A stretch of 64,000 nucleotides of DNA from an uncultured Bacteroidota bacterium (GTDB lineage Bacteria > Bacteroidota > Bacteroidia > AKYH767-A > OLB10), in the NCBI GenBank assembly GCA_900696575.1, contig CAADHD010000018.1:1-64000 (forward strand), in the 5' to 3' direction. Below are positions 5,227-38,165 of this stretch, one piece after another. Below the pieces are notes generated by a model that did not search any database, was not told the DNA's origin, and worked only from the letters and a program-made list of their open reading frames with translations. Each line of letters starts with the position of its first letter. Within the stretch, counting starts at the first letter, position 1. A program made the position numbers and the translations under genes.

Positions 5227-6030
5227 TTAAAAAGGCGCCCCGGGTTCCCGTTTCAGGTTTTTGTAAATGATAGTATCAAGCCATGACGGGAAAAACTTTT
5301 TCAGCCACACGGTAAGTTTTCCTTCTGTTGTCAGTACAATTTCTCGTTTGCGCTTGATCACGGCATCATAAATTCTATCCGCTACCATTTCTGCTTTCAT
5401 CAATTTCCCTTCTTCCCGAGGCGATTCGCCCTGAATGGTTCCGTCTTTCGATAATGCCATGTTTCTGATGTTGCTTTCTGTAAATCCCGGACAAACCGTA
5501 AGCACATGCAAGCCGGTGTTAAGGTTTTCAATACGCAGCGATTCGAGAAATCCTTCCAAAGCAAACTTCGATGCCGAATAGCCGGTTCTTCCCGGCAAGC
5601 CCGCCTTTCCGGCTATGGACGAAATGCCGGCCACCGTACCCTTATTCTTCAGCAGATAAGGCAAGGCAAATTTCGTACAGTAAACCGCTCCCCAGAAGTT
5701 GGTGTTCATCAGCTGCTTCAGCACAGCCAATTCCGTTTCGCTGAAAGCCGCCCTCATACTAATTCCCGCATTGTTAATCAGTACATCCATCCTCCCGAAT
5801 TTTCTGATGGTTTCTTCCGTCAGTCTTCTGCAATCATCTTCCTTTCCAACATCCACTGCAACCGGCAACACCTCTGTATTAATTTTTTTTATTTCCTCAG
5901 CAGACTTGATAAGCCTTTCTTCATCCCGTCCGCTTATCGCCACATTAAAGCCCATCCGTGCAAACTTCATTGCACAGGCTTTCCCGATGCCTGAACTTCC
6001 TCCTGTAATTACAACCGTTTTTTTATTCAT
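5227..6030 (-). CDS. Short-chain dehydrogenase/reductase (classical SDR)
   Basis: 267 aa NAD(P)H-dependent oxidoreductase. Cofactor motif TGGSSGIG at residues 9-16, NNAG at 86-89, catalytic Ser138, Tyr151 and Lys155 (YSASK), then 'CPGFTESNIRN'. A basic residue after the glycine motif ('SGRDEERL') favours NADP(H). The C-terminal tail (about 215-267) is longer and basic ('GKLTVWLKKFFPSWLD'), resembling SDRs that act on lipidic substrates at the membrane (DHRS7-like); that is inference. Its ATG overlaps the stop of mlaF by 4 nt, so it is the last gene of an mlaE-mlaF-SDR operon, which also suggests a lipid connection. Confidence 0.88.
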   Translation of the reverse strand: MNKKTVVITGGSSGIGKACAMKFARMGFNVAISGRDEERLIKSAEEIKKINTEVLPVAVDVGKEDDCRRLTEETIRKFGRMDVLINNAGISMRAAFSETELAVLKQLMNTNFWGAVYCTKFALPYLLKNKGTVAGISSIAGKAGLPGRTGYSASKFALEGFLESLRIENLNTGLHVLTVCPGFTESNIRNMALSKDGTIQGESPREEGKLMKAEMVADRIYDAVIKRKREIVLTTEGKLTVWLKKFFPSWLDTIIYKNLKREPGAPF

Positions 6031-24927: not shown

Positions 24928-25818
24928 TCAAATAAGGGATTTGGCTTTCTGATGTGTAAACCATATTCCGGCAAATATCATCATGGCGGTAATCAGGTGA
25001 ATCCGTTGCGGCAAGCCTTCACCAAATAAAACCGAAAACATGGCAGCGAATAAAGGTTGCAGATAAATATAAACGCTTACCTGCGAAGCGTCCAGTTCGC
25101 GCAAAGCAAAAATGTTGAATAAGTAAGCCAGAAAAGTAGTTGCCAATATCACATAAACAACCGACAGCCAGAGGCCGAAGTCCATCTCTGCCCATCGTGC
25201 AACCATCAGTTCCTCTGTTCCGAAAAACAAAACCGGAACAGAGCCAAAAAGAAAAGTCCATTTCATAACCGTAAGCGGATGAAAACGCATCATCAGGGGT
25301 TTTACAATCACTAAGAAAATGGCAAACGAAAGTGAGTTGATCAACACCATCAAATCGCCCATGGCCGATTGCATGCTGAAGGCGGAGTTACCTCCTGAAA
25401 GAATAAGCAGCGAAGCTCCTGACAGGGCTAGTATGATTCCTGCAGTTTTTGAAAAAGAAATTTTTTCGCGGATAAGAAAATGTGCTATCAATAAAACCAA
25501 AACAGGATTGGTAGTCATAATCAGAGCTGCATTGATGGGGACCGTGAGATTAAGCCCTGCAAAAAACAACAGTTGATTGATAGCCACTCCAAACAACCCG
25601 CAGAGGGCAAGACGAATAAAATCTTCTTTGCGCAGTTTTTGCTTTTCACTTACCAAAGCCGCACTTACCCAGAATAACAGGCAGGCAAAAACAACTCGCA
25701 CCAACACAAAACCCAAAGGCAGTATAAATTCGGGCATTGCTTTTTTGGCAATGGAATAATTAGCTCCGTAAATAAGGTTGGCCGAAAGGACAAACAAATG
25801 AGGCCGAAGTTTTTTCAT
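24928..25818 (-). CDS. EamA/DMT family transporter
   Basis: 296 aa with ten hydrophobic segments in two EamA repeats (1-140 and 150-290), the drug/metabolite transporter fold. Hallmarks: 'SANLIYGANYSIAKKAMPE' at the N-terminus, 'PINAALIMTTNPVLVLLIAHFL' closing repeat 1, and 'VSVYIYLQPLFAAMFSVLFG' closing repeat 2. Likely exports a small metabolite; the substrate is not deducible. Its start codon overlaps the stop of the upstream ArsC-like gene by 4 nt. Confidence 0.87.
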   Translation of the reverse strand: MKKLRPHLFVLSANLIYGANYSIAKKAMPEFILPLGFVLVRVVFACLLFWVSAALVSEKQKLRKEDFIRLALCGLFGVAINQLLFFAGLNLTVPINAALIMTTNPVLVLLIAHFLIREKISFSKTAGIILALSGASLLILSGGNSAFSMQSAMGDLMVLINSLSFAIFLVIVKPLMMRFHPLTVMKWTFLFGSVPVLFFGTEELMVARWAEMDFGLWLSVVYVILATTFLAYLFNIFALRELDASQVSVYIYLQPLFAAMFSVLFGEGLPQRIHLITAMMIFAGIWFTHQKAKSLI

Positions 25819-26177
25819 TTGCCGGAATTACGGATAGCTTCTTTTGCAGCAGCAATATTTTTTGGCGAGTTGCCGATAAAAATTTTGTCCTTAACAATAA
25901 TTACCGGCCGTTTCAGAAAGGTATATTCTTTAAGAATCAACTCGCGGTAATCGTTTTCGGTGAGCTTCTTTTCATTCAGTCCCCATTGGCGGTATTTCAT
26001 GGCAATGCGGCTGAAGAGCGCTTCATAACTGCCCGCCCTTATTTTCATTTCGTCAAGCTGTTTTGCTGTGATGGGGGCTGTTTTAATATCCTGCAGAGTA
26101 ATATTTTCGGGGGGGTTTATTTCCTTCAGGATGCGCTGGCAGGTGGTGCAAGCTGAGAGATGATAAATCCTTTTCAT
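25815..26177 (-). CDS. ArsC/Spx family protein
   Basis: 120 aa, thioredoxin-like fold. N-terminal CxxC (Cys10, Cys13 in 'SACTTCQRIL'), then 'DIKTAPITAKQLDEM', and the conserved 'EYTFLKRPVIIVKDKIFIGN' segment carrying the Arg-Pro pair of the ArsC/Spx/YffB family. Whether it is an arsenate reductase or a YffB/Spx-like redox or regulatory protein cannot be settled: a CxxC rather than a single Cys is more Spx-like, but no ClpXP or arsenic-resistance genes are nearby. Translationally coupled (4-nt overlap) to the EamA transporter and divergent from the porin-pstS operon. Confidence 0.82.
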   Translation of the reverse strand: MKRIYHLSACTTCQRILKEINPPENITLQDIKTAPITAKQLDEMKIRAGSYEALFSRIAMKYRQWGLNEKKLTENDYRELILKEYTFLKRPVIIVKDKIFIGNSPKNIAAAKEAIRNSGK

Positions 26178-26224
26178 ATCGGATTAAGGGGTCAATTATA
26201 GCGTAATGTTAACAGAAATCCTTA

Positions 26225-26296
26225 TTAACATTAAAGTAACATTACGATAACAATGCTCTAATCCTTCGCTAACTTTTTTGCAATGTTATCTTAACA
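26225..26296 (+). promoter_or_regulatory. Candidate Pho box: 11-bp-phased TTAACA-like repeats upstream of porin-pstS
   Basis: TTAACA (26225-26230), GTAACA (26236-26241) and ATAACA (26247-26252) recur every 11 bp. The phase continues through weaker CTAATC (26258) and CTAACT (26269) to another perfect TTAACA at 26291-26296. Eleven-bp direct repeats are the architecture of PhoB boxes, and TTAACA-type hexamers are the B. subtilis PhoP box. The location in front of a phosphate porin and pstS fits. Assignment to a Bacteroidota PhoB homologue is inference. An ArsC-like gene reads the other way. Confidence 0.6.
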
Positions 26297-26325
26297 TTGA
26301 GCCAATTTTAAACCAATCCCTTTGT

Positions 26326-27618
26326 ATGAAAAAGTTAAATCGCTTAATAATGGGTCTTATTCCCTTAACATTGTTAACATTTTCGGCTAATTCACAAAGC
26401 CAAACAGACACAGTTTTGCAGTCCGTTAAAAAACTGGAAACTGAAATTGCGGCTATGAAAAAGGCCAAAGTATCCGGCTATATTCAGACTCAGTACCAGA
26501 TTGCCGATACGGCAGGAATCAAATCCTATTCAGGAGGCGATTTTAAAGAAGGTGTTGACAACCGTTTTATGGTTAGGCGCGGAAGAATAAAGGCAGACTA
26601 TAAAAGCAAAGGCGTACAAACTGTGCTACAAATTGATGTAACCGAAAAAGGGCTGGCTATAAAAGATGCCTATATTTCCTTTTCACCTTTATTGCTGAAT
26701 GCAGTTACATTTACTGGCGGAATGTTTAACAGACCGTTTGGTTATGAAATTTCCTATTCATCATCCATGCGTGAAAGTCCTGAGCGCGGACGCATGTCAG
26801 GCATCTTATTTCCGGGCGAGCGTGACTTAGGGGCAAAAATTACTTTACATGGCCCCGAAAAAAGCAAATGGAATTTTCTGACACTTGAAGCAGGTCTGTT
26901 TAACGGAACAGGAGCACCAAAAGCTGGTACCGATGCCTCGGATTTCGACTCCTTCAAAGATTTCATCGGTCGCATGGCGCTGTCAAAATCTTTTAAGGAA
27001 GGAAACATTAAAGCCTCCGTTGCCGGCTCTTATTACCACGGAGGCTGGGCTCAGGATACCGTATTCAATTTTACCATTGGTCAGATTAATGACAGCACAT
27101 CAGGATTTGTAAAAAGCTCAGGTAAAGTTAAACGGTTTACCAAAGCGGAACGCGAATATGCCGGAGCCGATGCACAACTGGCCTTTCAGTCAGCTTGGGG
27201 CAAAACTGTTTTACGGGCCGAATACATTGCAGGCCGCCAACCCGGCAACAGTAAAAATTCTGACAGTCCGCAGGCACGTCCTGCCGATAATACCTACTTC
27301 CGGAAATTCAATGGCGCTTATTTCTATTTTATTCAAAGCATAAAGGAAACAGGCTTGTCGGTTGTTCTGAAGTATGACTGGTTCGACCCGAACTCCGATA
27401 TGCAGGGGAATACCATTGGCAAAACAGGAAACAATACTTCACAGGCCGATTTAAAATACACCACTCTTGGCAGCGGCTTACGATATGATTTAAAAGGCGG
27501 ATTAAGTTTTACGGCATGGTATGACATGGTGAAAAACGAAACAACACAAAACATAGAAGGATATCAAAAAGACATAAAGGATAATGTAATCACTCTCCGG
27601 ATGCAACTAAAATTTTAA
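26326..27618 (+). CDS. Phosphate-selective porin O/P family outer-membrane protein
   Basis: 430 aa from ATG 26326, which opens a standard signal peptide 'MKKLNRLIMGLIPLTLLTF'; the frame is open to a TTG at 26278 that lies inside the repeat operator. After the signal comes a short coiled coil ('VLQSVKKLETEIAAMKKA'), then a long beta-barrel: 'GYIQTQYQIAD', 'NRFMVRRGRIKADYKSKGV', 'GGMFNRPFGYEISYSSSMRESPERGR' region and a final strand ending in Phe ('NVITLRMQLKF'), as expected for an outer-membrane porin. OprO/P-type porins admit phosphate or polyphosphate under starvation. It is 18 bp upstream of pstS, so one operon. Confidence 0.88.
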   Translation: MKKLNRLIMGLIPLTLLTFSANSQSQTDTVLQSVKKLETEIAAMKKAKVSGYIQTQYQIADTAGIKSYSGGDFKEGVDNRFMVRRGRIKADYKSKGVQTVLQIDVTEKGLAIKDAYISFSPLLLNAVTFTGGMFNRPFGYEISYSSSMRESPERGRMSGILFPGERDLGAKITLHGPEKSKWNFLTLEAGLFNGTGAPKAGTDASDFDSFKDFIGRMALSKSFKEGNIKASVAGSYYHGGWAQDTVFNFTIGQINDSTSGFVKSSGKVKRFTKAEREYAGADAQLAFQSAWGKTVLRAEYIAGRQPGNSKNSDSPQARPADNTYFRKFNGAYFYFIQSIKETGLSVVLKYDWFDPNSDMQGNTIGKTGNNTSQADLKYTTLGSGLRYDLKGGLSFTAWYDMVKNETTQNIEGYQKDIKDNVITLRMQLKF

Positions 27619-27636: not shown

Positions 27637-28659
27637 ATGAAAAAAACAATGATGATGATTACGGCAGTGCTGCTGATGGCAGGCTGTGGCGGACAAAAAA
27701 CTGAACAACAAAATGATGCCGGTCAAACCCTTACTGGCGAAATAAGAATTGACGGGTCAAGTACCGTTTATCCGGTTTCGGAAGCGGTAGCTGAAGACTT
27801 CAGGGGCATTTTCCCAAAAGTAAATGTTACTGTTGGTGAATCAGGAACAGGAGGCGGTTTTAAAAAATTCGGGCGTGGCGAAACAGACATAAGCAATGCT
27901 TCAAGGCCTATCAAAGCCGGAGAGGATTCTATTTGCAGGGCAAATAACATTGAGTACATTGAACTGCCGATATGCTATGACGGACTGGCTGTTGTTGTAC
28001 ATACGCAAAACAACTGGGTAGATAAAATGACCGTTGCTGAATTGAAAAAACTATGGGAGCCTGCTGCTCAGGGCAAGATTATGCGCTGGAATCAAATCCG
28101 ACCCGAATGGCCGAATCAGGAAATTCATTTATTTGGTGCCGGAACCAACAGCGGTACTTTTGATTATTTCACCGAGGCCATAGTAGGCAAATCGAAAGAA
28201 AGCCGGGGAGATTATACTGCCAGCGAAGATGACAATGTGCTTGTGCAGGGAGTAGCCAGCGATAAGTTGGCATTAGGATTTTTTGGTTTGGCTTATTATG
28301 AGAACAACAGGGATAAGCTCAAAATTATTCCGATAGATGATGAAAACGAAGCTAATGGCGCAGGGGGTATAATCCCGAATCTGGAAACCGTACGTAATGG
28401 CACCTATCAGCCGCTTTCGCGGCCATTATTTATTTACATTAATAAAGCTTCTATACAAAGGCCTGAAATGAAGATGTTTGTTAATTACTACATTGAGCAT
28501 GCACAAAAACTGGCGGAAGAAGTAGGTTATGTTGGCTTGCCTGATAATATTTATCCGTTAGTAAAAAACCGGATAGAAAAACAGGTAACCGGAAGCATGT
28601 TTGCCGGAATAAGCGATGTGGGCGTAAGCATGGAAGATCTGTTGGGCAAAATGGATTAA
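27637..28659 (+). CDS. pstS: Phosphate ABC transporter substrate-binding lipoprotein PstS
   Basis: 340 aa. Lipoprotein signal with Cys17 ('VLLMAGC'), then the PstS/SphX type phosphate-binding fold: 'IRIDGSSTVYPVSEAVAEDF', phosphate loop 'GESGTGGGFKKFGRGETDISNASRP', and 'GAGTNSGTFDYFTEAIVG'. The short 'DGSSTVYP' loop is characteristic of the SphX-like subgroup with wide occurrence in Bacteroidota and cyanobacteria. It binds orthophosphate at the outer face of the inner membrane for PstCAB. Cotranscribed with the porin and closed by a bidirectional-looking hairpin. The rest of the transporter lies 6.3 kb away at 34992. Confidence 0.94.
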   Translation: MKKTMMMITAVLLMAGCGGQKTEQQNDAGQTLTGEIRIDGSSTVYPVSEAVAEDFRGIFPKVNVTVGESGTGGGFKKFGRGETDISNASRPIKAGEDSICRANNIEYIELPICYDGLAVVVHTQNNWVDKMTVAELKKLWEPAAQGKIMRWNQIRPEWPNQEIHLFGAGTNSGTFDYFTEAIVGKSKESRGDYTASEDDNVLVQGVASDKLALGFFGLAYYENNRDKLKIIPIDDENEANGAGGIIPNLETVRNGTYQPLSRPLFIYINKASIQRPEMKMFVNYYIEHAQKLAEEVGYVGLPDNIYPLVKNRIEKQVTGSMFAGISDVGVSMEDLLGKMD

Positions 28660-28675: not shown

Positions 28676-28717
28676 AAAACTCCGTAACGTGCAGGTATTG
28701 CCGCTACGGAGTTTTTT
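28676..28717 (+). terminator. Terminator after pstS, overlapping the end of the convergent sensor-kinase gene
   Basis: AAAACTCCGTA (28676-28686) pairs perfectly with TACGGAGTTTT (28705-28715), followed by T residues to 28717. The stop codon of the opposing kinase gene (28704-28706) lies inside the right arm. In the minus direction only four T residues follow the stem, so it may terminate both transcripts, more weakly on that side. Confidence 0.82.
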
Positions 28718-31700
28718 CATTTGCACCTCGGCAGTGAAAAGAAAGTTTTTCAATCAAAATCGCTGAATCAAAAGGCTTGGAAATATAATCATCCATCCCG
28801 GCATTAAGGCAACGTTCGGCTTCTGATTTTAATGCCCCTGCCGTCATGGCAATAATCATTGTATTGTTTTTGGGTTCAGGCAGTTCCTGGCGGATAATGC
28901 GGGTTGCTTCATATCCGTCCATGATGGGCATTTGAATATCCATCAGTACAACATCATATTCATTTTGCCTGATTTTTTCGACAGCCGCTTTTCCGTTTGC
29001 TGCAACATCAACTGAAATTCCGGGGAGGTGAAACTGCAAGGTGTCAATGGCAACTATCTGGTTTAATTCATTGTCTTCGACCAATAAAATTTTCAGTTTG
29101 CTCAACGCAGTTGAAACATCGGCCAGTTTGTTTTCCGGAATGCGGATGTTGGAAGAATCGGTTACTTCCAAAGGAATGATGAATGAAAAAACAGAGCCTT
29201 GATTCTGCTTACTAATCACAGAAATTTTGCCGCCATGCAACTCGACCAACTGTCGGGAAATTGTTAGTCCAAGTCCTGTCCCGCCAAATTGCCGGTGCGA
29301 ATTTGCATCAGACTGAGAAAAGCTTTCAAAGATTATCTCCAACTGGTTTTCGGGAATACCAATGCCGGTATCAGAAACCGTAAACCTGATATTTTTTACA
29401 TCGGGGACAACATTGCCATTGGCATCTACATGGTTTCCAAGGTTCAAGCAATCAACCGTTACGCTGCCTTCATGTGTAAATTTAATAGCATTGCCGACCA
29501 TGTTAATCAGCACTTCGCTGATGCGCACAGGATCTCCGATAACAGCCACCGGAACATTATCATTGACCATACACTTAAAATCCAGCTTCTTCTCTTCTGC
29601 CTTTAATTGAAAGGTTTCAAACAAATCATTCATCAGTTCGCGGATATTAAAAGGTACAAATTCCAGTTTCATTTTACCCTCTTCAATTTTTGAATAATCA
29701 AGAACATCGTTAATGATAACGAGCAGGTGGTCTGAAGAGCGGTTGATGGCATCAAGGTATTTTTTCTGGTCATTGCGCGGATTTTTGGCCAGCAGCAATC
29801 GTGTCATGCCCACAATGGCATTCATTGGAGTTCGTATTTCATGACTCATGTTGGCCAGAAACTGCTGTTTGATTTTAGCCGACCGAGAAGCAAACTCTCT
29901 TTCTTTTTCTTTTCTCACGGTCTGGATTCGCATATACACCACCAGGTAAATTAACAACGACACCAGAAGAAATGCTCCCAGTTTTGCATAAATGGTTTTA
30001 AACCATGGCGGATTTATCGTGAGCATTATTTTCAGTCCGTCAGGATTCCACACTCCGTCATTATTCGAGCCGGTTACATTAAAAACATAATCGCCCGGGC
30101 TCATGTTGGTAAAACTTACATAGCGCCTGTTGCCGTTATTTACCCAATCGGTATTAAGGCCTTCGAGCTTGTACCGGTATTGATTTTTTTTGGCGTTTAT
30201 GTAATTGAGTGCTGCAAATTCAAACGAGAAAAAATTTTCATTGCTGTTCAATACTAATTTGTTTTGGGTGGTAAGTGAAAAAAATTTATCGGGATATGCG
30301 CCATCAAAAACAGAGTTGTCAAAAATTCGGAAGTCGGTTATTACTATGGGTGGAACATAAGTATTTTTAGTTATTCGTTCGGGAAGAAAGGAATTAATAC
30401 CGTTGATGTTTCCGAAAAAAATTTCTCCATCGGCTGTTCGGAAAGCAGATCCCTGATTAAAAGCGTTGCTTTTAAGCCCGTCATTCACATCGTAATTGGT
30501 AAAAGTTTCGGTTCGAATGTTAAACCGGCTGAGGCCGTTGTTGGTAGAAAGCCAGAGATTTCCGTTACGATCATCAATAATGGCATAGATAACATTGTTG
30601 GGCAATCCGTTGGCCATAGTGTAATGCTTAAAAGAGTTTGTGAGCGGGTCAAACCTGTTAAGTCCTGTTCCGTTAGTTCCGACCCAGATGGTACTGTCAG
30701 GTGTTTGGGCAAGGGAGGAAATACGGTTCCCGCTGAGGCTGGAAGGGTTTCGGGGCTGATTTAAGAAAATGGTAATATCTTTCGTTTTGCTATGGATGAA
30801 GTTCAGCCCGTCTTCGGTTCCTACCCAAATGTTTCCCGAAGCATCCTGCATCAGGCAGCGGATAATGCCATTGGAAATTCGATGGTTGGCGGGTTTATTA
30901 CTGTTAAACTTAATAAAAACTTTGTGCGAAACCGGGTCAATTCCATTCAGTCCTGAAGATGTCCCCGCCCAGATAATGCCTGATTTATCTTCCATCAAAG
31001 CAAAAATCATCCGTCTGCTGAGGGAAGAATCATCACCGGCAATGGGAAGAAGGGTTGTAAATGCCGGATTTAAACCAACCTCTTTTCCGGCAGCAGAAAT
31101 TTTTTTTTGAAGTTCATTTTTTTGCAGAAGGCTTAGTCCTTTAACGGTTCCAACCCATAAATTATCATTACGATCCTTAAGCATTGAAAGAATGATATTG
31201 TCGGCAAGCTGAGTTTCTGAATTGGTGTACCGCTGAATCCGGTGCGTTTTCTGTGTTAGTAAATTCTTCAGGCAAAGCCCGCTATTATCTGTTCCGGCAA
31301 TCAGCCATTCTTTGTAAGTCAGCAAAGCCGTTATAGAAACAGGTTTTTCATTACCCTCGGAAAACAGAGACAAGGTGTTGAAATTTTCCTTGCTCGGATT
31401 ATAGATGCTGACTCCCAAATCGGTTCCTGCCCATATTAAACCTGCACGGTCTTCAAAAAGCGCATAAACCTGATTATTGATCAGGCTGCCCGGCTGCAAA
31501 GAGTTATGAAAATAGCTTTGCTGAAGAAAAATTTGTTCACCTTGTAAAGTTTTTCTGTATTGATGCCTAAGTAATCCGTTGCCATTAGTGGCCAGCCAAA
31601 TATTATCAGACTTGTCATGCATATAACATAACGCTTCATTCGCCTTATTATCGTAAAAAAAAGGCTTAATGTGGTATTTATTGGCAGCATAGGAGATTCT

Positions 31701-32507
31701 GTAAATAGTTCCATTAGCAACCATTGCCAGAACAGATCGCGGGCCGGCAGGGTCGCTGATAAGCATTTCGGGAATCAGGCTGTTCTTAATGGCCGGATCA
31801 AAGTTATCACTGGCGTTTTCCATTTGCCAGGCATGGTTTTTATTGTTCCGGAAAATGCGCTTTATGCCATTGGTATAACCCAGCCACCCTTCGTTAGGAG
31901 AATTAAAAAAAACCGAATAAAACCACTTTGATTCGGGGTCTGAATCCCAGTCTTTGATATATACAGGCACGAATTCGCAATTAAATTGATAATTATTTCT
32001 ATTTTCTGAAACAGAAACTTTAAAAATCCCGGCACGGTAAGAAGTTGCCACCCAGATATTGTTATCATAGTCAGCAGCAATATAAAAAATTTCCAGTTTT
32101 CGGGGAGCATCAGGAGCAGTCCTGTTCAGGTCTATCTTGAGGAACCTTTCGGTTTTATGATCATAAAAATTCAATCCATCGAGGGTTCCTGCCCATAGTC
32201 CTCCTTTACGGTCAACCAGTAAACGGTAAATAAAATTATTGGAAAGAGAGTTTGTGTCGCCAGGTATTTGATTAAACACTTTGAAAGACAAACCATCATA
32301 CCTGTTCAGGCCATCGGTAGTACCAATCCAGATAAATCCGGTCGAATCCTGTACAATAGCACGGATGCTGCCGGAAGAAAGGCCATCTTCTATGGTCAGG
32401 TAGTCAAAACGTATATTGAATTGTGCGTGGCCGGAATAACAACCCTGCATCACTATAACAGTGATTAGGAAAAACAGCCGGTTGTTAAAACGTGTAAACT
32501 TTTGCAT
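28704..32507 (-). CDS. Hybrid two-component system sensor histidine kinase (Reg_prop/Y_Y_Y, response receiver)
   Basis: 1267 aa. Signal sequence with possible lipobox or signal-peptidase site at 20-29; a periplasmic sensor of about ten Reg_prop repeats ('GFIWIGTTDGLNRYDG', 'GLIWAGTDLGVSIYNP', 'NIWVGTEDGLNFIHS' and more) forming two beta-propellers up to about residue 725; a Y_Y_Y domain ('YRYKLEGLNTDWVNNGNRRY'); one transmembrane helix near 841-860; HisKA with phospho-acceptor His889 ('MSHEIRTPMNAIVGM'); an HATPase with 'DTGIGIPENQ' and 'GGTGLGLTISRQL'; and a C-terminal receiver with Asp1190 ('VVLMDIQMPIMDGYEA'). There is no AraC-type output domain, so unlike classical HTCS proteins it must signal to a separate regulator. 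It lies downstream of three lipoprotein-type genes on the same strand. Confidence 0.93.
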   Translation of the reverse strand: MQKFTRFNNRLFFLITVIVMQGCYSGHAQFNIRFDYLTIEDGLSSGSIRAIVQDSTGFIWIGTTDGLNRYDGLSFKVFNQIPGDTNSLSNNFIYRLLVDRKGGLWAGTLDGLNFYDHKTERFLKIDLNRTAPDAPRKLEIFYIAADYDNNIWVATSYRAGIFKVSVSENRNNYQFNCEFVPVYIKDWDSDPESKWFYSVFFNSPNEGWLGYTNGIKRIFRNNKNHAWQMENASDNFDPAIKNSLIPEMLISDPAGPRSVLAMVANGTIYRISYAANKYHIKPFFYDNKANEALCYMHDKSDNIWLATNGNGLLRHQYRKTLQGEQIFLQQSYFHNSLQPGSLINNQVYALFEDRAGLIWAGTDLGVSIYNPSKENFNTLSLFSEGNEKPVSITALLTYKEWLIAGTDNSGLCLKNLLTQKTHRIQRYTNSETQLADNIILSMLKDRNDNLWVGTVKGLSLLQKNELQKKISAAGKEVGLNPAFTTLLPIAGDDSSLSRRMIFALMEDKSGIIWAGTSSGLNGIDPVSHKVFIKFNSNKPANHRISNGIIRCLMQDASGNIWVGTEDGLNFIHSKTKDITIFLNQPRNPSSLSGNRISSLAQTPDSTIWVGTNGTGLNRFDPLTNSFKHYTMANGLPNNVIYAIIDDRNGNLWLSTNNGLSRFNIRTETFTNYDVNDGLKSNAFNQGSAFRTADGEIFFGNINGINSFLPERITKNTYVPPIVITDFRIFDNSVFDGAYPDKFFSLTTQNKLVLNSNENFFSFEFAALNYINAKKNQYRYKLEGLNTDWVNNGNRRYVSFTNMSPGDYVFNVTGSNNDGVWNPDGLKIMLTINPPWFKTIYAKLGAFLLVSLLIYLVVYMRIQTVRKEKEREFASRSAKIKQQFLANMSHEIRTPMNAIVGMTRLLLAKNPRNDQKKYLDAINRSSDHLLVIINDVLDYSKIEEGKMKLEFVPFNIRELMNDLFETFQLKAEEKKLDFKCMVNDNVPVAVIGDPVRISEVLINMVGNAIKFTHEGSVTVDCLNLGNHVDANGNVVPDVKNIRFTVSDTGIGIPENQLEIIFESFSQSDANSHRQFGGTGLGLTISRQLVELHGGKISVISKQNQGSVFSFIIPLEVTDSSNIRIPENKLADVSTALSKLKILLVEDNELNQIVAIDTLQFHLPGISVDVAANGKAAVEKIRQNEYDVVLMDIQMPIMDGYEATRIIRQELPEPKNNTMIIAMTAGALKSEAERCLNAGMDDYISKPFDSAILIEKLSFHCRGANEKTP

Positions 32508-32597
32508 GAAGTATAAAAATTTTACGAGCAGTTGAGGTGGAACTCACTCCGGAAATACCTGAATGATTTGCAGACCGGTATTTAAATTCAGCATGTT

Positions 32598-33149
32598 TTA
32601 AAATAGTTGTTTATTCTGTTCAGCAATATAAATAGTATCCAACAAGTGTATATTAAATGTGAATTCCTGCAACTGACCTGTTTCCATAGCCATTATTCTT
32701 ATGCTGCGGGTTTGGCCTGAAGGATGCAGTGGAAAGACAAAATCGGTTTCGTTAAGCAGTTTAACGTGGGATGAGGGTAAGCCTGTTCCCAGCGAATCGA
32801 GCTTATCAATCAGTACGGCACGGGGCGAAAACATTTTCAGGCGGCCTATCTCCATGTTGTTTTTATCCAGATATATCATTTGAAAATTGCCATCTGGTCT
32901 GTTAAATTTTTTTCTGGCACGGCCCGGAATCTTGTAAATTTTATTATCGGCTAACTGATAGGTATTGTCCTTATATTTCAGCTTTACAACATAATGGGCT
33001 ATCCGGTCGTCTTGGAAGTAATAAGGATTAAACGGAGAGCTTTCCGGTATTCCTTTAAGAGGGGAAGATGTATCATTTGTTTTAATACACGAAACAAACG
33101 CGAATACGGGTAATAAAAAAAACCATGATACGATATGCAGGTTTTTCAT
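32598..33149 (-). CDS. Lipoprotein of unknown function paired with the M64 peptidase
   Basis: 183 aa. Lipoprotein signal ending at Cys21 ('VFAFVSCIK'), followed by a mixed beta domain with no motif I recognise ('DRIAHYVVKLKYKDNTYQL', 'KIPGRARKKFNRPDG', 'QTRSIRIMAMETGQLQEF'). Its start codon overlaps the stop of the M64-type peptidase gene by 4 nt, so the two are translated from one mRNA and could be partners or enzyme and inhibitor. It lies 90 bp upstream of the hybrid sensor kinase. Confidence 0.65.
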   Translation of the reverse strand: MKNLHIVSWFFLLPVFAFVSCIKTNDTSSPLKGIPESSPFNPYYFQDDRIAHYVVKLKYKDNTYQLADNKIYKIPGRARKKFNRPDGNFQMIYLDKNNMEIGRLKMFSPRAVLIDKLDSLGTGLPSSHVKLLNETDFVFPLHPSGQTRSIRIMAMETGQLQEFTFNIHLLDTIYIAEQNKQLF

Positions 33150-34303
33150 GGCATTGAATATTCTTCCATGTAATAATTAACGGCTTCACGGCAACAGGGC
33201 CCGTATTCCACTATAGAGATACCACTCAACCCCATGATACACCCTTCGTACGGGCACAGAATATAACAACGGTTGGCCATAATGTCAGCATCCTGAACAA
33301 GTACCATGTTTTTAGCCGGAACATTAATTCTGCGCGCATATTCGCGGGCGTTATTTTCATTGTTCCAGTTATTGGGTTTAGTATTATTCGGGAAGTATTT
33401 TCCGTGTTCGTATTCATCTCCCAGCCCGAATAAGGCATGTCCCAGCTCATGCATAAAGGAACCTTTATAAAAAATCCGGGAAGTAAACTGTCTTGTCTCC
33501 AGCTTTGTTACTTCCCTGTCATATTCCTGCTGATGAATATAGGCAAAAGCATCACAAAATAAAATCTCGGAACTATTCTGCGGATTTTCAAAATTTCCGT
33601 TAGTGGTGTAGTTGTATTTCCCCTGCACAGGATTGATAAAGAAGTTGAATTTATCAAATTGTTTGCGGGTGGACCGATCTAATAAAACTCCGTTTTTAAT
33701 AAATTCCCTGACTGACATATAGAAGTATGGCAGATAGTCGTTGCCCGGAAGCCTAAGAAGATCCGGTAAATCCGATTCGGCCACAAACAGCAGGTTGCAT
33801 GCCCTGTTCACATCGGCTGTTGCATAAACCGGAATAGGTTGTTTCTTGTGCAACGGAATCTCGGTCTCAGCGGTCTCAGCCGGATAATACGGTTTGGTAG
33901 CAAAGGTTACCCGATGGGTGTATGCATCGCTTTCTTTTTCCGGAGTTACTTTAATAGTATAAGTAACAACGGCATTAAGCGGAAAGCCTTCTGCATGGCT
34001 ATAAATAACCGGCAGGTTAATGGTATCACTTTTATGCCATGTATGATTAAGGACGATTTGTTCGGGATCGGTTTCCGATGAGGTTTTATTTACTGTGCGG
34101 TAAGTAATTTGGAGGTCCACTTTACTCAGGCTAAATTGGCTGTTAAGAAAAAACAAACCAAAAGAAACCGGTGTGTTATAGTCAGGATAAATTGGGTTGT
34201 GGATGGCCAAGGTTTCAGGCTTTATTTTATCCTGATGGCAACCAGTAATAAATATTGCCTGCAACATCAAAAGCATCCAAGGGTAGTATTTGTTGCGGCA
34301 CAT
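33146..34303 (-). CDS. M64-family-like zinc metallopeptidase lipoprotein
   Basis: 385 aa. Lipoprotein signal with Cys22 ('AIFITGCHQ'), an N-terminal beta region (about 30-150) and a C-terminal peptidase domain with His285-Glu286, His289 and Asp296-Glu297-Tyr298 in 'MHELGHALFGLGDEYEHG'. The HExxHxxxGLxDEY pattern is that of IgA peptidase M64 (C. ramosum type) and its widespread Bacteroidota homologues. Upstream 'RACNLLFVAESDLPD' and 'SEILFCDAFAYIHQQE' follow the same fold. Several Cys residues near the C-terminus ('CYILCPYEGCIMG', 'GPCCREA') may form disulphides. Probably surface-exposed; the substrate is unknown and need not be an immunoglobulin. Confidence 0.82.
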   Translation of the reverse strand: MCRNKYYPWMLLMLQAIFITGCHQDKIKPETLAIHNPIYPDYNTPVSFGLFFLNSQFSLSKVDLQITYRTVNKTSSETDPEQIVLNHTWHKSDTINLPVIYSHAEGFPLNAVVTYTIKVTPEKESDAYTHRVTFATKPYYPAETAETEIPLHKKQPIPVYATADVNRACNLLFVAESDLPDLLRLPGNDYLPYFYMSVREFIKNGVLLDRSTRKQFDKFNFFINPVQGKYNYTTNGNFENPQNSSEILFCDAFAYIHQQEYDREVTKLETRQFTSRIFYKGSFMHELGHALFGLGDEYEHGKYFPNNTKPNNWNNENNAREYARRINVPAKNMVLVQDADIMANRCYILCPYEGCIMGLSGISIVEYGPCCREAVNYYMEEYSMP

Positions 34304-34361
34304 AAAGAGTATGATTTAAACCGGGGTATGAAAAAAATCACGCCCCGGGAGTTTTAAAAAT

Positions 34362-34805
34362 TCAGGAGCATTTAGTTGAAGGCGGACAGGTAGGCCCCTG
34401 CGGATCGTCATCTCCGGTTACATCAAAATATTCCTCTGTATTTGATGGGGTAATTCCTTTGGCCATAATTATAAATTTATTGGCTGCCACATCTTTGCCA
34501 ATGATGAGATACCGGTGCTGGTAAGGCCCTTTCTGAGAGAACAAGTACAATTTGCATTGATTTACGTTTACTCCTTTAATGTACCCCAGATTATCATTTT
34601 CGGCCGCTAATACGGCTGCTTTGGCTTCATTAGCGTCCATAGGGTTAAATCCGTCAGGACTGCAACCGGAAGGCAACCCGGGACACTCATCCGGTTTAAT
34701 CATTCCGAAGTCATTTCGGCATTTTTGTTCAGAACAATTGCAGCTGCTCAGCAGGAACAAGCCCGCAATCATGAATAGCGTGAGAAAGATTTTTGAGTTC
34801 TTCAT
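34362..34805 (-). CDS. Small Cys-rich lipoprotein, unknown function
   Basis: 147 aa. Lipoprotein signal 'MKNSKIFLTLFMIAGLFLLSSC' region with Cys22, then a Cys-containing stretch ('CNCSEQKCRNDFGM', 'PGLPSGCSPDG'), a beta-rich middle ('NVNQCKLYLFSQKGPYQHRYL') and a tail with CPPSTKC. No family recognised. It is the first gene of a minus-strand block (this gene, M64 peptidase, small lipoprotein, hybrid kinase), 58 bp ahead of the peptidase, and is divergent from pstC. Confidence 0.62.
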   Translation of the reverse strand: MKNSKIFLTLFMIAGLFLLSSCNCSEQKCRNDFGMIKPDECPGLPSGCSPDGFNPMDANEAKAAVLAAENDNLGYIKGVNVNQCKLYLFSQKGPYQHRYLIIGKDVAANKFIIMAKGITPSNTEEYFDVTGDDDPQGPTCPPSTKCS

Positions 34806-34991: not shown

Positions 34992-35867
34992 ATGAAATGG
35001 AAAGAAAAACTGATTGAGTCATTCCTTGTATTCAGCGGCTCAATCGGCATCCTTACAACGCTTGGCATTATAACGGTGCTGCTTTATGAGGCTGTTCAGT
35101 TTTTCAGCGAAGTTTCTATAGTTGATTTTTTAACCGATACAGAGTGGACTCCCCTCTTCGCCAATAAGCGATTCGGCATTATGGCGCTCCTGTCAGGCAC
35201 ATTGCTCACAACTTTAATTGCCATCGTCATTGCTCTGCCTTTAGGTTTAATAATAGCTATCTATCTTAGCGAATATGCCGACAGCAGGCTAAGGGCATAC
35301 ATAAAACCCTTGCTCGAAGTGCTGGCATCTATACCAACCGTTGTTTATGGTTTTTTTGCTCTTACCGTAGTAACTCCGTTTCTGCAGAAGTTTATCCCCG
35401 AACTGGCCGGATTTAATGCACTTTCGCCAGGCATTGTAATGGGGGTGATGATTATTCCATTAATCTCTTCCTTAAGCGAAGATGCTCTTTATGCAGTTCC
35501 GCGGTCGCTGCGCGAAGGAGCTTATGCGCTGGGCTCTTCAAAACTACAAACGTCATTCCGGGTGGTATTACCTGCTGCTTCGTCTGGCGTGGTAGTATCG
35601 GTTATTCTGGCTATTTCAAGAGCTCTTGGCGAAACTATGATTGTAGCAATAGCAGCCGGACAGCAGCCGCGCTTAACGTTTAATCCGCTTGTGCCTATCG
35701 AAACAGTTACTACTTATATCGTTCAGGTAAGCCTGGGCGATGTGCCCCAGAATTCATTGGAATATAAAACCATTTTTGCCGCAGGCCTCAGTTTATTCGT
35801 ATTTACTTTTATATTAAACAACATCAGTTATTTCATTAAAAAGAAATACACGCAGAAATATGAATAA
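34992..35867 (+). CDS. pstC: Phosphate ABC transporter permease PstC
   Basis: 291 aa, about six transmembrane spans with a long first periplasmic loop. The permease signature is 'REGAYALGSSKLQTSFRVVLPAASSGVV' region with 'ISRALGETMIVAIAAG', the conserved Gly-Glu-Thr that couples to the ATPase and forms the phosphate path; also 'GLIIAIYLSEYAD'. It pairs with PstA to form the channel. The 3' end overlaps pstA by 8 nt. It is the first gene of pstC-pstA-pstB-phoU, separated from pstS by a minus-strand insertion-like block. Confidence 0.95.
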   Translation: MKWKEKLIESFLVFSGSIGILTTLGIITVLLYEAVQFFSEVSIVDFLTDTEWTPLFANKRFGIMALLSGTLLTTLIAIVIALPLGLIIAIYLSEYADSRLRAYIKPLLEVLASIPTVVYGFFALTVVTPFLQKFIPELAGFNALSPGIVMGVMIIPLISSLSEDALYAVPRSLREGAYALGSSKLQTSFRVVLPAASSGVVVSVILAISRALGETMIVAIAAGQQPRLTFNPLVPIETVTTYIVQVSLGDVPQNSLEYKTIFAAGLSLFVFTFILNNISYFIKKKYTQKYE

Positions 35868-36717
35868 CGAGCAGAAAAAAAACCTGAAGAACAATCTCTT
35901 CAAAGCAATGGCTATTTCTGCCACGCTGTTTGGGTTGTTTATTCTGGCTGTACTCCTTATTTCTATTGTTATTGACGGGTTTGGCAGATTAAGCATGAGC
36001 TTTTTTACTGATCTGCCATCACGCAAAGCCGATCAAGCAGGAATTTATACCGCATGGACAGGCACCCTGTGGATTATGATAGTAACCGCGCTTTTTGCTT
36101 TGCCGGTAGGAATAGCTGCCGGTATTTACCTGCAGGAATACGGACGAAAAAACAAGTTTGCTTCATTTGTTGACATCAATATATCTAATCTGGCCGGAGT
36201 TCCTTCCATTATTTACGGTTTGCTGGGTCTTGAGTTTTTTGTGCGCTGGTGCGGTTTGGGTCAAAGCATCCTTTCAGGCAGTCTTACTTTGGCATTACTC
36301 ATTTTGCCAATCATCATTGTAAGCACCCGTGAAGCGCTTAAAGCCGTTCCCGATACTATTCGGGAAGCCTCTTATGCCCTTGGTGCTTCCCAGTGGCAAA
36401 CCATACAACATCAGGTGTTGCCGGCTGCTTCGGGTGGAATAATGACCGGTGTTATTTTATCGCTCTCCCGCGCTGTAGGCGAAACCGCCCCTCTGATTGT
36501 GGTGGGCGCTTTAACATACGTTCCGTTTGCCCCATCAAACTGGAACGACTCATTTACCGTATTGCCAATTCAGATTTTTAACTGGGCATCACGTCCTCAA
36601 CAGGATTTTTTGGTGAATGCCGCTGCCGGAATTATTGTTTTGCTTGTAATCACTTTCCTGATGAACGGAACAGCCATCTATCTTCGCAACCGGTGGCAGA
36701 AAAAAATAAAATGGTAA
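35860..36717 (+). CDS. pstA: Phosphate ABC transporter permease PstA
   Basis: 285 aa, six membrane spans. Motifs: 'GIAAGIYLQEYGRKNKFA', 'NLAGVPSIIYGLLGLEFF', 'REASYALGASQWQTIQHQVLP' region and 'LSRAVGETAPLIVVGALTY'. It overlaps pstC by 8 nt and abuts pstB with no spacer (TAA then ATG), so the stoichiometric partners are translationally coupled. Complete and of normal length. Confidence 0.95.
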   Translation: MNNEQKKNLKNNLFKAMAISATLFGLFILAVLLISIVIDGFGRLSMSFFTDLPSRKADQAGIYTAWTGTLWIMIVTALFALPVGIAAGIYLQEYGRKNKFASFVDINISNLAGVPSIIYGLLGLEFFVRWCGLGQSILSGSLTLALLILPIIIVSTREALKAVPDTIREASYALGASQWQTIQHQVLPAASGGIMTGVILSLSRAVGETAPLIVVGALTYVPFAPSNWNDSFTVLPIQIFNWASRPQQDFLVNAAAGIIVLLVITFLMNGTAIYLRNRWQKKIKW

Positions 36718-37482
36718 ATGATGTTAACCCGATATAAAATAGAAACACGCGATTTGCACCTGTACTATGGCGACTTTCATGCGCTGAAAGGAATCAATAT
36801 TCACATGGAAGCTAATACGGTAACGGCCCTGATAGGCCCCAGCGGCTGCGGCAAATCTACTTACCTGCGCACCCTTAACCGCATGAACGACCTTATTGAA
36901 GGGGTAAGAATTACAGGTACCACACTGATTGACGGCAAAAACATTTACTCGCGCGATATAAAAATTGATGAGTTGCGTAAAAAAGTCGGCATGGTGTTTC
37001 AGAAACCGAATCCTTTTCCCAAGAGCATTTTCGAAAATGTAGCTTATGGCTTGCGGGTAAATGGAATCAATCATAAAAAGTTTATCGAAGAGCGGGTTGA
37101 AAGGTGTCTTCATCAGGCTGCTTTGTGGGATGAAGTGAAGGATAAGCTTCGTAAATCAGCTTTGAGTTTATCGGGAGGGCAACAACAACGGCTTTGTATT
37201 GCCCGGGCCTTAGCCATTGAGCCTTCTGTAGTGCTGATGGATGAACCGGCCTCGGCTCTTGATCCGATTTCAACCGCTAAAATTGAAGAACTTATTTACG
37301 AACTCAAAAAAAACTACACCATCATCATTGTTACTCATAACATGCAGCAGGCAGGAAGAGTAAGCGACAAAACCGGATTTTTCTACCTGGGTGAGTTAAT
37401 AGAATTTGATGATACCAAAAAAATATTCACTAATCCTGCCGAAATTCGTACTCAGAATTATATCACCGGCCGTTTCGGCTGA
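36718..37482 (+). CDS. pstB: Phosphate ABC transporter ATP-binding protein PstB
   Basis: 254 aa. Walker A GPSGCGKS at 40-47 with the PstB-specific '[11 protein letters not shown]' after it, '[20 protein letters not shown]' Q-loop region, signature '[16 protein letters not shown]', Walker B '[14 protein letters not shown]', and the His switch '[13 protein letters not shown]'. Energises phosphate import by PstCA. Two ATGs stand in tandem (36718 and 36721); the first directly follows the pstA stop. Confidence 0.96.
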
Positions 37483-37499
37483 TTTTAAACGCTAGCAAA

Positions 37500-38165
37500 A
37501 TGACACATCTCGATACCGAATTAAAAGCGCTGAAGGAAGATATGCATGAAATGTTCAGGCTTGTCCTCTCACAGCTTGAAAAATCAAAAACCGCATTAAT
37601 CAGTCTTGATAAAGATCTGGCGCGCGAAGTCATTGTGAACGAAAAGCGGGTCAACTCATTTGAATTGAAACTTGACCGCGATTGTGAAAACATTATTGCG
37701 CTTTTTAATCCCGTAGCGGTTGACCTGCGCTTTGTGCTGGCATCGCTAAAAATAAACTCCAACCTCGAACGCATTGGCGATATTGCCGATGGTATTGCCA
37801 AGTTTGCGCTTAGCATTAAGCTTATGCCCGAAAAAGAGTTGCTTGAAAAAACCCGTCTGGTCGAAATGTTTGATGTGTCGCTCGAAATGATGCGCGATGT
37901 AATGGCTGCTTATGAAAACGAAGATACCAAATTAGCACGCAGCGTATTTAAGATGGATGATGTGCTTGACGAAATAAACCTGAATGCCAGCACATCCGTG
38001 GCCGAGTTTATTAAGTCCCATCAGGACCGTATTAACCAGAGCCTTTATGCACTTTCTACCATCCGTAAATTGGAGCGCGTAGGCGACCAGTGTAAAAACA
38101 TTGCCGAAGAAATTATTTTTTATATTGAAGCTAAAGTATTGAAGCACAGCAAAAAATTAAACTGA
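37500..38165 (+). CDS. phoU: Phosphate signalling/transport regulator PhoU
   Basis: 221 aa, two three-helix PhoU repeats. Hallmark metal-binding and contact sequences: 'LEKSKTALISLDKDLAREV', 'LFNPVAVDLRFVLASLKINSNLERIGDIADGIAK' region with the E-R-x-G-D motif, and the second-repeat 'TIRKLERVGDQCKNIAEEI'. It mediates inhibition of PhoR/PhoB signalling when phosphate is plentiful. It is 17 bp after pstB and closes the operon; its last 9 nt overlap the convergent HAD gene. No phoR/phoB genes are in the window. Confidence 0.94.
   Translation: MTHLDTELKALKEDMHEMFRLVLSQLEKSKTALISLDKDLAREVIVNEKRVNSFELKLDRDCENIIALFNPVAVDLRFVLASLKINSNLERIGDIADGIAKFALSIKLMPEKELLEKTRLVEMFDVSLEMMRDVMAAYENEDTKLARSVFKMDDVLDEINLNASTSVAEFIKSHQDRINQSLYALSTIRKLERVGDQCKNIAEEIIFYIEAKVLKHSKKLN

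Follow-up and report, generated by a model that had tools for sequence, protein, structure and literature searches.

A candidate Pho box of 11-bp TTAACA/GTAACA repeats in register with the -7 element upstream of porin-pstS in an uncultured Bacteroidota bacterium

The window analysed here is a stretch of 64,000 nucleotides (positions 1 to 64,000 of contig CAADHD010000018.1, forward strand) from an uncultured Bacteroidota bacterium. Within it, an intergenic region of 148 bp (26178-26325) separates an ArsC/Spx-like gene from a divergently transcribed porin gene that is followed by pstS. This intergenic region carries six TAAC[A/T] words, five of which share a common 11-bp phase. The features on which the analysis rests are the following.

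25815-26177, reverse strand: ArsC/Spx-like gene, divergent, sharing the 148-bp intergenic region, without a strong box facing it
26209-26214, forward strand: TTAACA, out of phase by direct reading, probably outside the operator
26225-26274, forward strand: candidate Pho operator, 11-bp-phased TTAACA (26225), GTAACA (26236), ATAACA (26247), CTAATC (26258) and CTAACT (26269)
26277-26282, forward strand: -7 element of the promoter, TTTGCA, 52 bases on from the start of the first repeat (offset +52)
26291-26296, forward strand: TTAACA, in 11-bp register yet downstream of the -7 element, of uncertain role (weak profile matches, E 0.15-0.2)
26326-27618, forward strand: outer-membrane porin that opens the regulated unit, with 40-47% identity to the porins that precede pstS in relatives
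27637-28659, forward strand: pstS, phosphate-binding protein (TIGR02136, above cut-off)
34992-38165, forward strand: pstC-pstA-pstB-phoU, with an inserted hybrid kinase gene and three ORFs between it and pstS
L057:2762-3439: PhoB-type regulator (Response_reg and Trans_reg_C)
L057:3487-4524: PhoR-type kinase (HisKA and HATPase_c)

The porin matched no Pfam or NCBIfam model; its family, with homologues ahead of pstS in several relatives, is missing from both libraries. Most relatives have an uninterrupted run of pst genes, unlike the window, where pstS is split from pstCAB-phoU by the insert at 28704-34805. This insert comprises a two-component-propeller hybrid kinase (Reg_prop, HisKA and receiver domains, with no AraC domain found) and three ORFs on the reverse strand. 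Scanning the window with the matrix described below found no Pho box immediately ahead of pstC. As arsenate is a phosphate mimic, the ArsC/Spx-like gene could conceivably be co-regulated with porin-pstS. The phoB-phoR pair lies outside the window, from G000:C2:45761, and the genome holds both a PhoB-type regulator and a PhoR-type kinase as a cognate pair. The best NCBIfam models for the two proteins include PhoB and PnpS/PhoR, with scores below the cut-offs. We nevertheless call the regulator PhoB, because several relatives have a phoB, 70-78% identical to it, that is close to the pst cluster or divergent from it.

The original prediction had listed six hexamers, and all of them lie exactly where it placed them (26209-26214, 26225-26230, 26236-26241, 26247-26252, 26269-26274 and 26291-26296), the TTAACA at 26209 being off-phase as it had noted. 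Absent from its list was a further in-register copy, CTAATC at 26258-26263. Its reading of the element as 11-bp repeats stood, and its extent had to be redrawn: the functional unit runs from 26225 to 26282 and comprises the five repeats together with the -7 TTTG (26277-26280). Since we read the operator relative to this TTTG, the 26209 copy is excluded and the 26291 copy is doubtful. The latter copy forms the right-hand side of an inverted repeat with perfect arms, CAATGTTA-TCT-TAACATTG (26281-26299), which could be an opposed second PhoB contact, or chance. A Pho box has at least two direct repeats with an 11-bp period, and five in-register copies are found at 26225-26274. When the 148-bp intergenic region was shuffled 20,000 times with dinucleotides preserved, neither the five-in-phase pattern nor the exact triple arose, and 300 dinucleotide shuffles of the whole window likewise gave no exact triple. 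In a pattern scan of the 2.87-Mb genome, the zero-mismatch triple of [TGA]TAACA-N5 was unique, at 26225, and the second-best triple, with one mismatch, lay at G000:C2:45699, 35 bp 5' of the PhoB-type response regulator gene.

The motif was also recovered from relatives. From 18 other genomes, with this one left out, we collected the 250 bp preceding porin/pstS and phoB (27 sequences) and submitted them to an EM motif finder that makes no assumption of repeats. It returned TTAACATT (width 8), TTAACATTnagTTAACA (width 17, containing the 11-bp repeat) and TTAACAtTaa.TTAACAtT..g.TAAcA (width 28). The width-17 motif reached a log-likelihood ratio of 178, compared with 62-69 in six Markov controls. 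The matrix scored 28.0 at the window site and at most 10.3 over the rest of the window, leaving aside the remaining words of that intergenic region.

A sequence-only profile, R1, was built from 21 promoters of relatives and run over this genome, which was held out. With E-values that are rough by the search tool's own statement, the window site before porin-pstS ranked first (4.4e-6) and the phoB-phoR promoter second (2.8e-4), followed by C4:85981 (1.2e-3), C20:33745 (1.8e-3), C18:201755 (0.03) and C4:82613 (0.07). The original prediction would have been refuted by a motif scattered irrespective of phosphate genes, and this outcome did not arise: porin-pstS and phoB-phoR are the top two sites. 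Rank 3 precedes a T9SS-sorted protein weakly matching the lamin-tail family, and rank 6 an operon for lamin-tail, SdiA-regulated/phytase-like and Porin_O_P proteins; the two belong to one porin/phytase-like island. Three weaker boxes lie in this island (L072:8614-13774, on G000:C4) before the T9SS-sorted, phytase-like and Porin_O_P genes, making it a candidate extracellular phosphate-scavenging cluster. Rank 4 precedes a TonB receptor; three relatives (L041, L046 and L056) carry, between phoB and pst, receptors that share 52-55% identity with it across more than 900 residues. Rank 5 precedes an operon for a calcineurin-type, PlcP-like phosphoesterase and a glycosyltransferase. These gene types can be compared with Flavobacterium johnsoniae, in which Pi depletion induces phoB, a TonB receptor, a PlcP-type phosphoesterase, a glycosyltransferase and beta-helix proteins (PMC8115612). 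There, phoB also stands beside a TonB receptor, and homologous gene types follow the boxes here; the text of that paper describes no operator, the words 'motif' and 'promoter' occurring in it 0 times.

We then ran R1 on 149 genomes of the class and set the positions of its 86 matches at E <= 1e-3 against those of pstB and PhoB-like genes. Genomes outside the training set contributed 72 matches, of which 37 lay within 12 kb of pst or phoB; at E <= 3e-5 the proportion was 18 of 19. From region sizes we estimate that about 1% of randomly chosen positions would be so placed. Linked matches were mostly upstream of pst on the same strand, or between divergent genes. Kinship inflates such counts within families, and the breadth of the R1 matches, which span many families, outweighs the raw numbers. 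Matches occurred in 0/15 genomes without a PhoB match, versus 61/134 of the others; in the nearest relative, of the same genus (G001), pst, PhoB and the motif are all absent. The before-phosphate-genes placement of a Pho box is seen both at genome ranks 1 and 2, before phosphate-uptake genes and phoB, and class-wide. The remaining 35 of 72 matches had no pst or phoB neighbour under the thresholds used. We inspected four strong ones: the box in L101 precedes a homologue of the rank-4 TonB receptor, that in L099 a beta-helix-like protein related to one beside the pst cluster of relatives, and those in L100 and L084 have short ORFs only downstream. In distant genomes, strong boxes are followed by secreted beta-helix-like proteins that are related to one another (L080:1598 and L099:1578), and proteins related to them stand beside pst in L041, L045, L046, L049 and L056. 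These proteins are plausibly equivalent to the FI-FIII lipoproteins of F. johnsoniae.

The repeats also keep a fixed position relative to the promoter. The primary sigma factor of Bacteroidota has the consensus TAnnTTTG at -7 and TTTG at -33 (PMC7366714). Reading the window promoter, we found no -33 TTTG, and the four bases ahead of its -7 TTTG, CTTT, depart from TAnn. The missing -33 TTTG and -7 TA would fit an activator-dependent promoter. Among 29 promoters, the offset of TTTG from the motif start, counted with a matrix that does not include the -7 element, was 52 in 14 and 41 in 9 (23/29 together), every other offset being seen at most once. The phoB promoter of this genome has the offset of 41, and its TTTG sits inside a perfect TAnnTTTG (TAGTTTTG). 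Together with the 74 of the Bacteroidaceae described below, these offsets all equal 8 modulo 11, so that the repeats stand in fixed helical register with TTTG. A Pho box takes a fixed position in which it replaces the upstream sigma-recognition element, and here TTTG falls at +52, +41 or +74, the window sequence having no -33 TTTG. We also considered a second promoter formed by the TTAACA at 26291 and a TTTG at 26321 (offset 30, in register) and rejected it, as its start would fall at or after the ATG.

An experimental anchor is available in Bacteroides fragilis, whose recombinant PhoB (PhoRB, BF1575/BF1576) shifts a 512-bp pstC promoter fragment in EMSA, reported with neither footprint nor consensus, and whose pstC is down 428-fold in a phoB mutant (PMC3547664). 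We reached the B. fragilis pstC locus via a Bacteroides pstC homologue and read the promoters of strains Q1F2 and S82 (L147 and L148), the EMSA strain being YCH46. The PhoB-shifted promoter has the same 11-bp architecture and TTTG register as the window site: its repeats follow one another in strict 11-bp steps, then TTTG comes at +74. Unlike those of the window, they run GTAACA, GTAACA, GAAACA, TTCAAA, TTCACA, TTAATA. Six in-register repeats and TTTG at +74 were found in 51 Bacteroidaceae pstC promoters, with units that are GTAACA/TTCAAA-like and not pure TTAACA. Architecture is better conserved than sequence, and the Bacteroidaceae unit has drifted. The 28-bp matrix was discarded as a detector of these sites, since it scored below 7 at the pst promoters, and they were recognised by register, by hand. 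In one Bacteroides genome (L139, pstC-pstS intergenic region 5505-5720) the pst cluster is rearranged, pstS facing away from pstCAB and the box facing pstC.

The PhoP box of Bacillus subtilis consists of TT[A/T]ACA repeats with a spacing of about 5 bp. Hexamer and spacing are near-identical to those found here, whereas the phylum is another one and the promoter is of the sigma-A type and is not known to have a TTTG in fixed register. The cyanobacterial SphR box, CTTAACCT in at least three 8-bp repeats with a 3-bp linker (PMC1906773), shares the TTAAC core, the 11-bp period, the three or more repeats and the pst genes, and differs in its flanking bases (C..CCT) and promoter type. In Escherichia coli the Pho box is CTGTCAT in two or more 11-bp direct repeats (PMC4415409). 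It resembles the present element in its 11-bp head-to-tail repeats, its place directly upstream of a promoter where it replaces the upstream sigma element, its phosphate genes and the autoregulation of phoB. Unlike it, the present element has a TTAACA/GTAACA unit, a Bacteroidota promoter with TAnnTTTG at -7, and up to five or six repeats reaching the -7 element. The CTGTCAT consensus is not found here, in agreement with the original prediction, which had gone on to call the motif phylum-specific; that much was overstated, as the Bacillus PhoP and cyanobacterial SphR boxes have a similar core. What is already known for Bacteroidota is a PhoB regulon from transcriptomes and one EMSA. No published operator consensus for Bacteroidota PhoB was found in the literature searched, and nothing turned up on TTAACA with PhoP for this phylum.

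In our judgment, the repeats before porin-pstS are very probably the operator of a PhoB-type response regulator, that is, a Pho box of the TTAACA/GTAACA type serving a Bacteroidota promoter. The Pho box originally proposed for this site is supported by the two top ranks in the held-out scan, by 18 of the 19 best class matches and by the B. fragilis architecture. Binding and activation by PhoB in this organism, in a class-II-like manner, are what we infer from these data. Literature support for induction under low phosphate comes from B. fragilis and F. johnsoniae. Upon phosphate limitation, phosphorylated PhoB would bind the 11-bp repeats head to tail on one helix face, over a stretch that begins about 52 bp before the -7 TTTG and ends about 8 bp before it. 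Bound PhoB would stand in for the -33 element that is missing here and bring the Bacteroidota RNA polymerase to a promoter of the sigma-ABfr type (-7 TAnnTTTG), and the recruited polymerase would then transcribe porin-pstS.

Could the 11-bp TTAACA/TGTAAC repeats belong to another regulator of the OmpR/PhoB family, WalR- or RprY-like, whose regulon would include phosphate genes as one part among others? Regulators of the WalR type bind comparable TGTAAY repeats of 11 bp, the WalR box being TGTWAH-N5-TGTWAH before cell-wall genes, and the Bacteroides form TGTAAC-N5-TGTAAC resembles it. Tandem 11-bp binding is common to OmpR-family regulators, and the 35 class matches lacking pst or phoB nearby under the thresholds applied would also suit such a regulator. 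We regard this possibility as unlikely: the two top sites of the genome precede porin-pstS and phoB itself, cell-wall hydrolases account for 0/6 of the top genes, the motif co-occurs with a PhoB-type gene and in many genomes occupies the gap between phoB and divergent pst/TonB genes, and it was PhoB that shifted the B. fragilis promoter (PMC3547664). Still less credible is that the inverted repeat at 26281-26299 is the real element, as the site of a separate dimeric repressor or as an RNA hairpin, with the upstream repeats incidental. Its 8-bp arms are indeed perfect; arms of this length are expected by chance about once per window, and no such repeat was seen at the matching place in the relatives' promoters examined, where the direct repeats are conserved. 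A chance cluster of words without regulatory role, as AT-rich intergenic regions typical of Bacteroidota might yield, has a practically negligible probability, being at odds with the shuffles and already refuted by the conservation of sequence, phase and promoter distance across genomes.

Beyond this locus, the PhoB-operator reading would extend to a class-wide Bacteroidota Pho box placed in quantised 11-bp steps (41, 52, 74) relative to the -7 TTTG. We consider it likely that PhoB activates the sigma-ABfr polymerase from a strict helical face, taking over the function of the -33 element, and that phosphate regulons across Bacteroidia, TonB receptors and T9SS-exported proteins among them, can be predicted from sequence by way of the motif. 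The fixed -7 register makes contact between the activator and the phylum's unusual sigma factor directly testable. Once validated, the motif would allow phosphate-responsive genes to be predicted in Bacteroidota of gut, plant and marine habitats, among them those for porins, TonB receptors, phosphatases and lipid remodelling.
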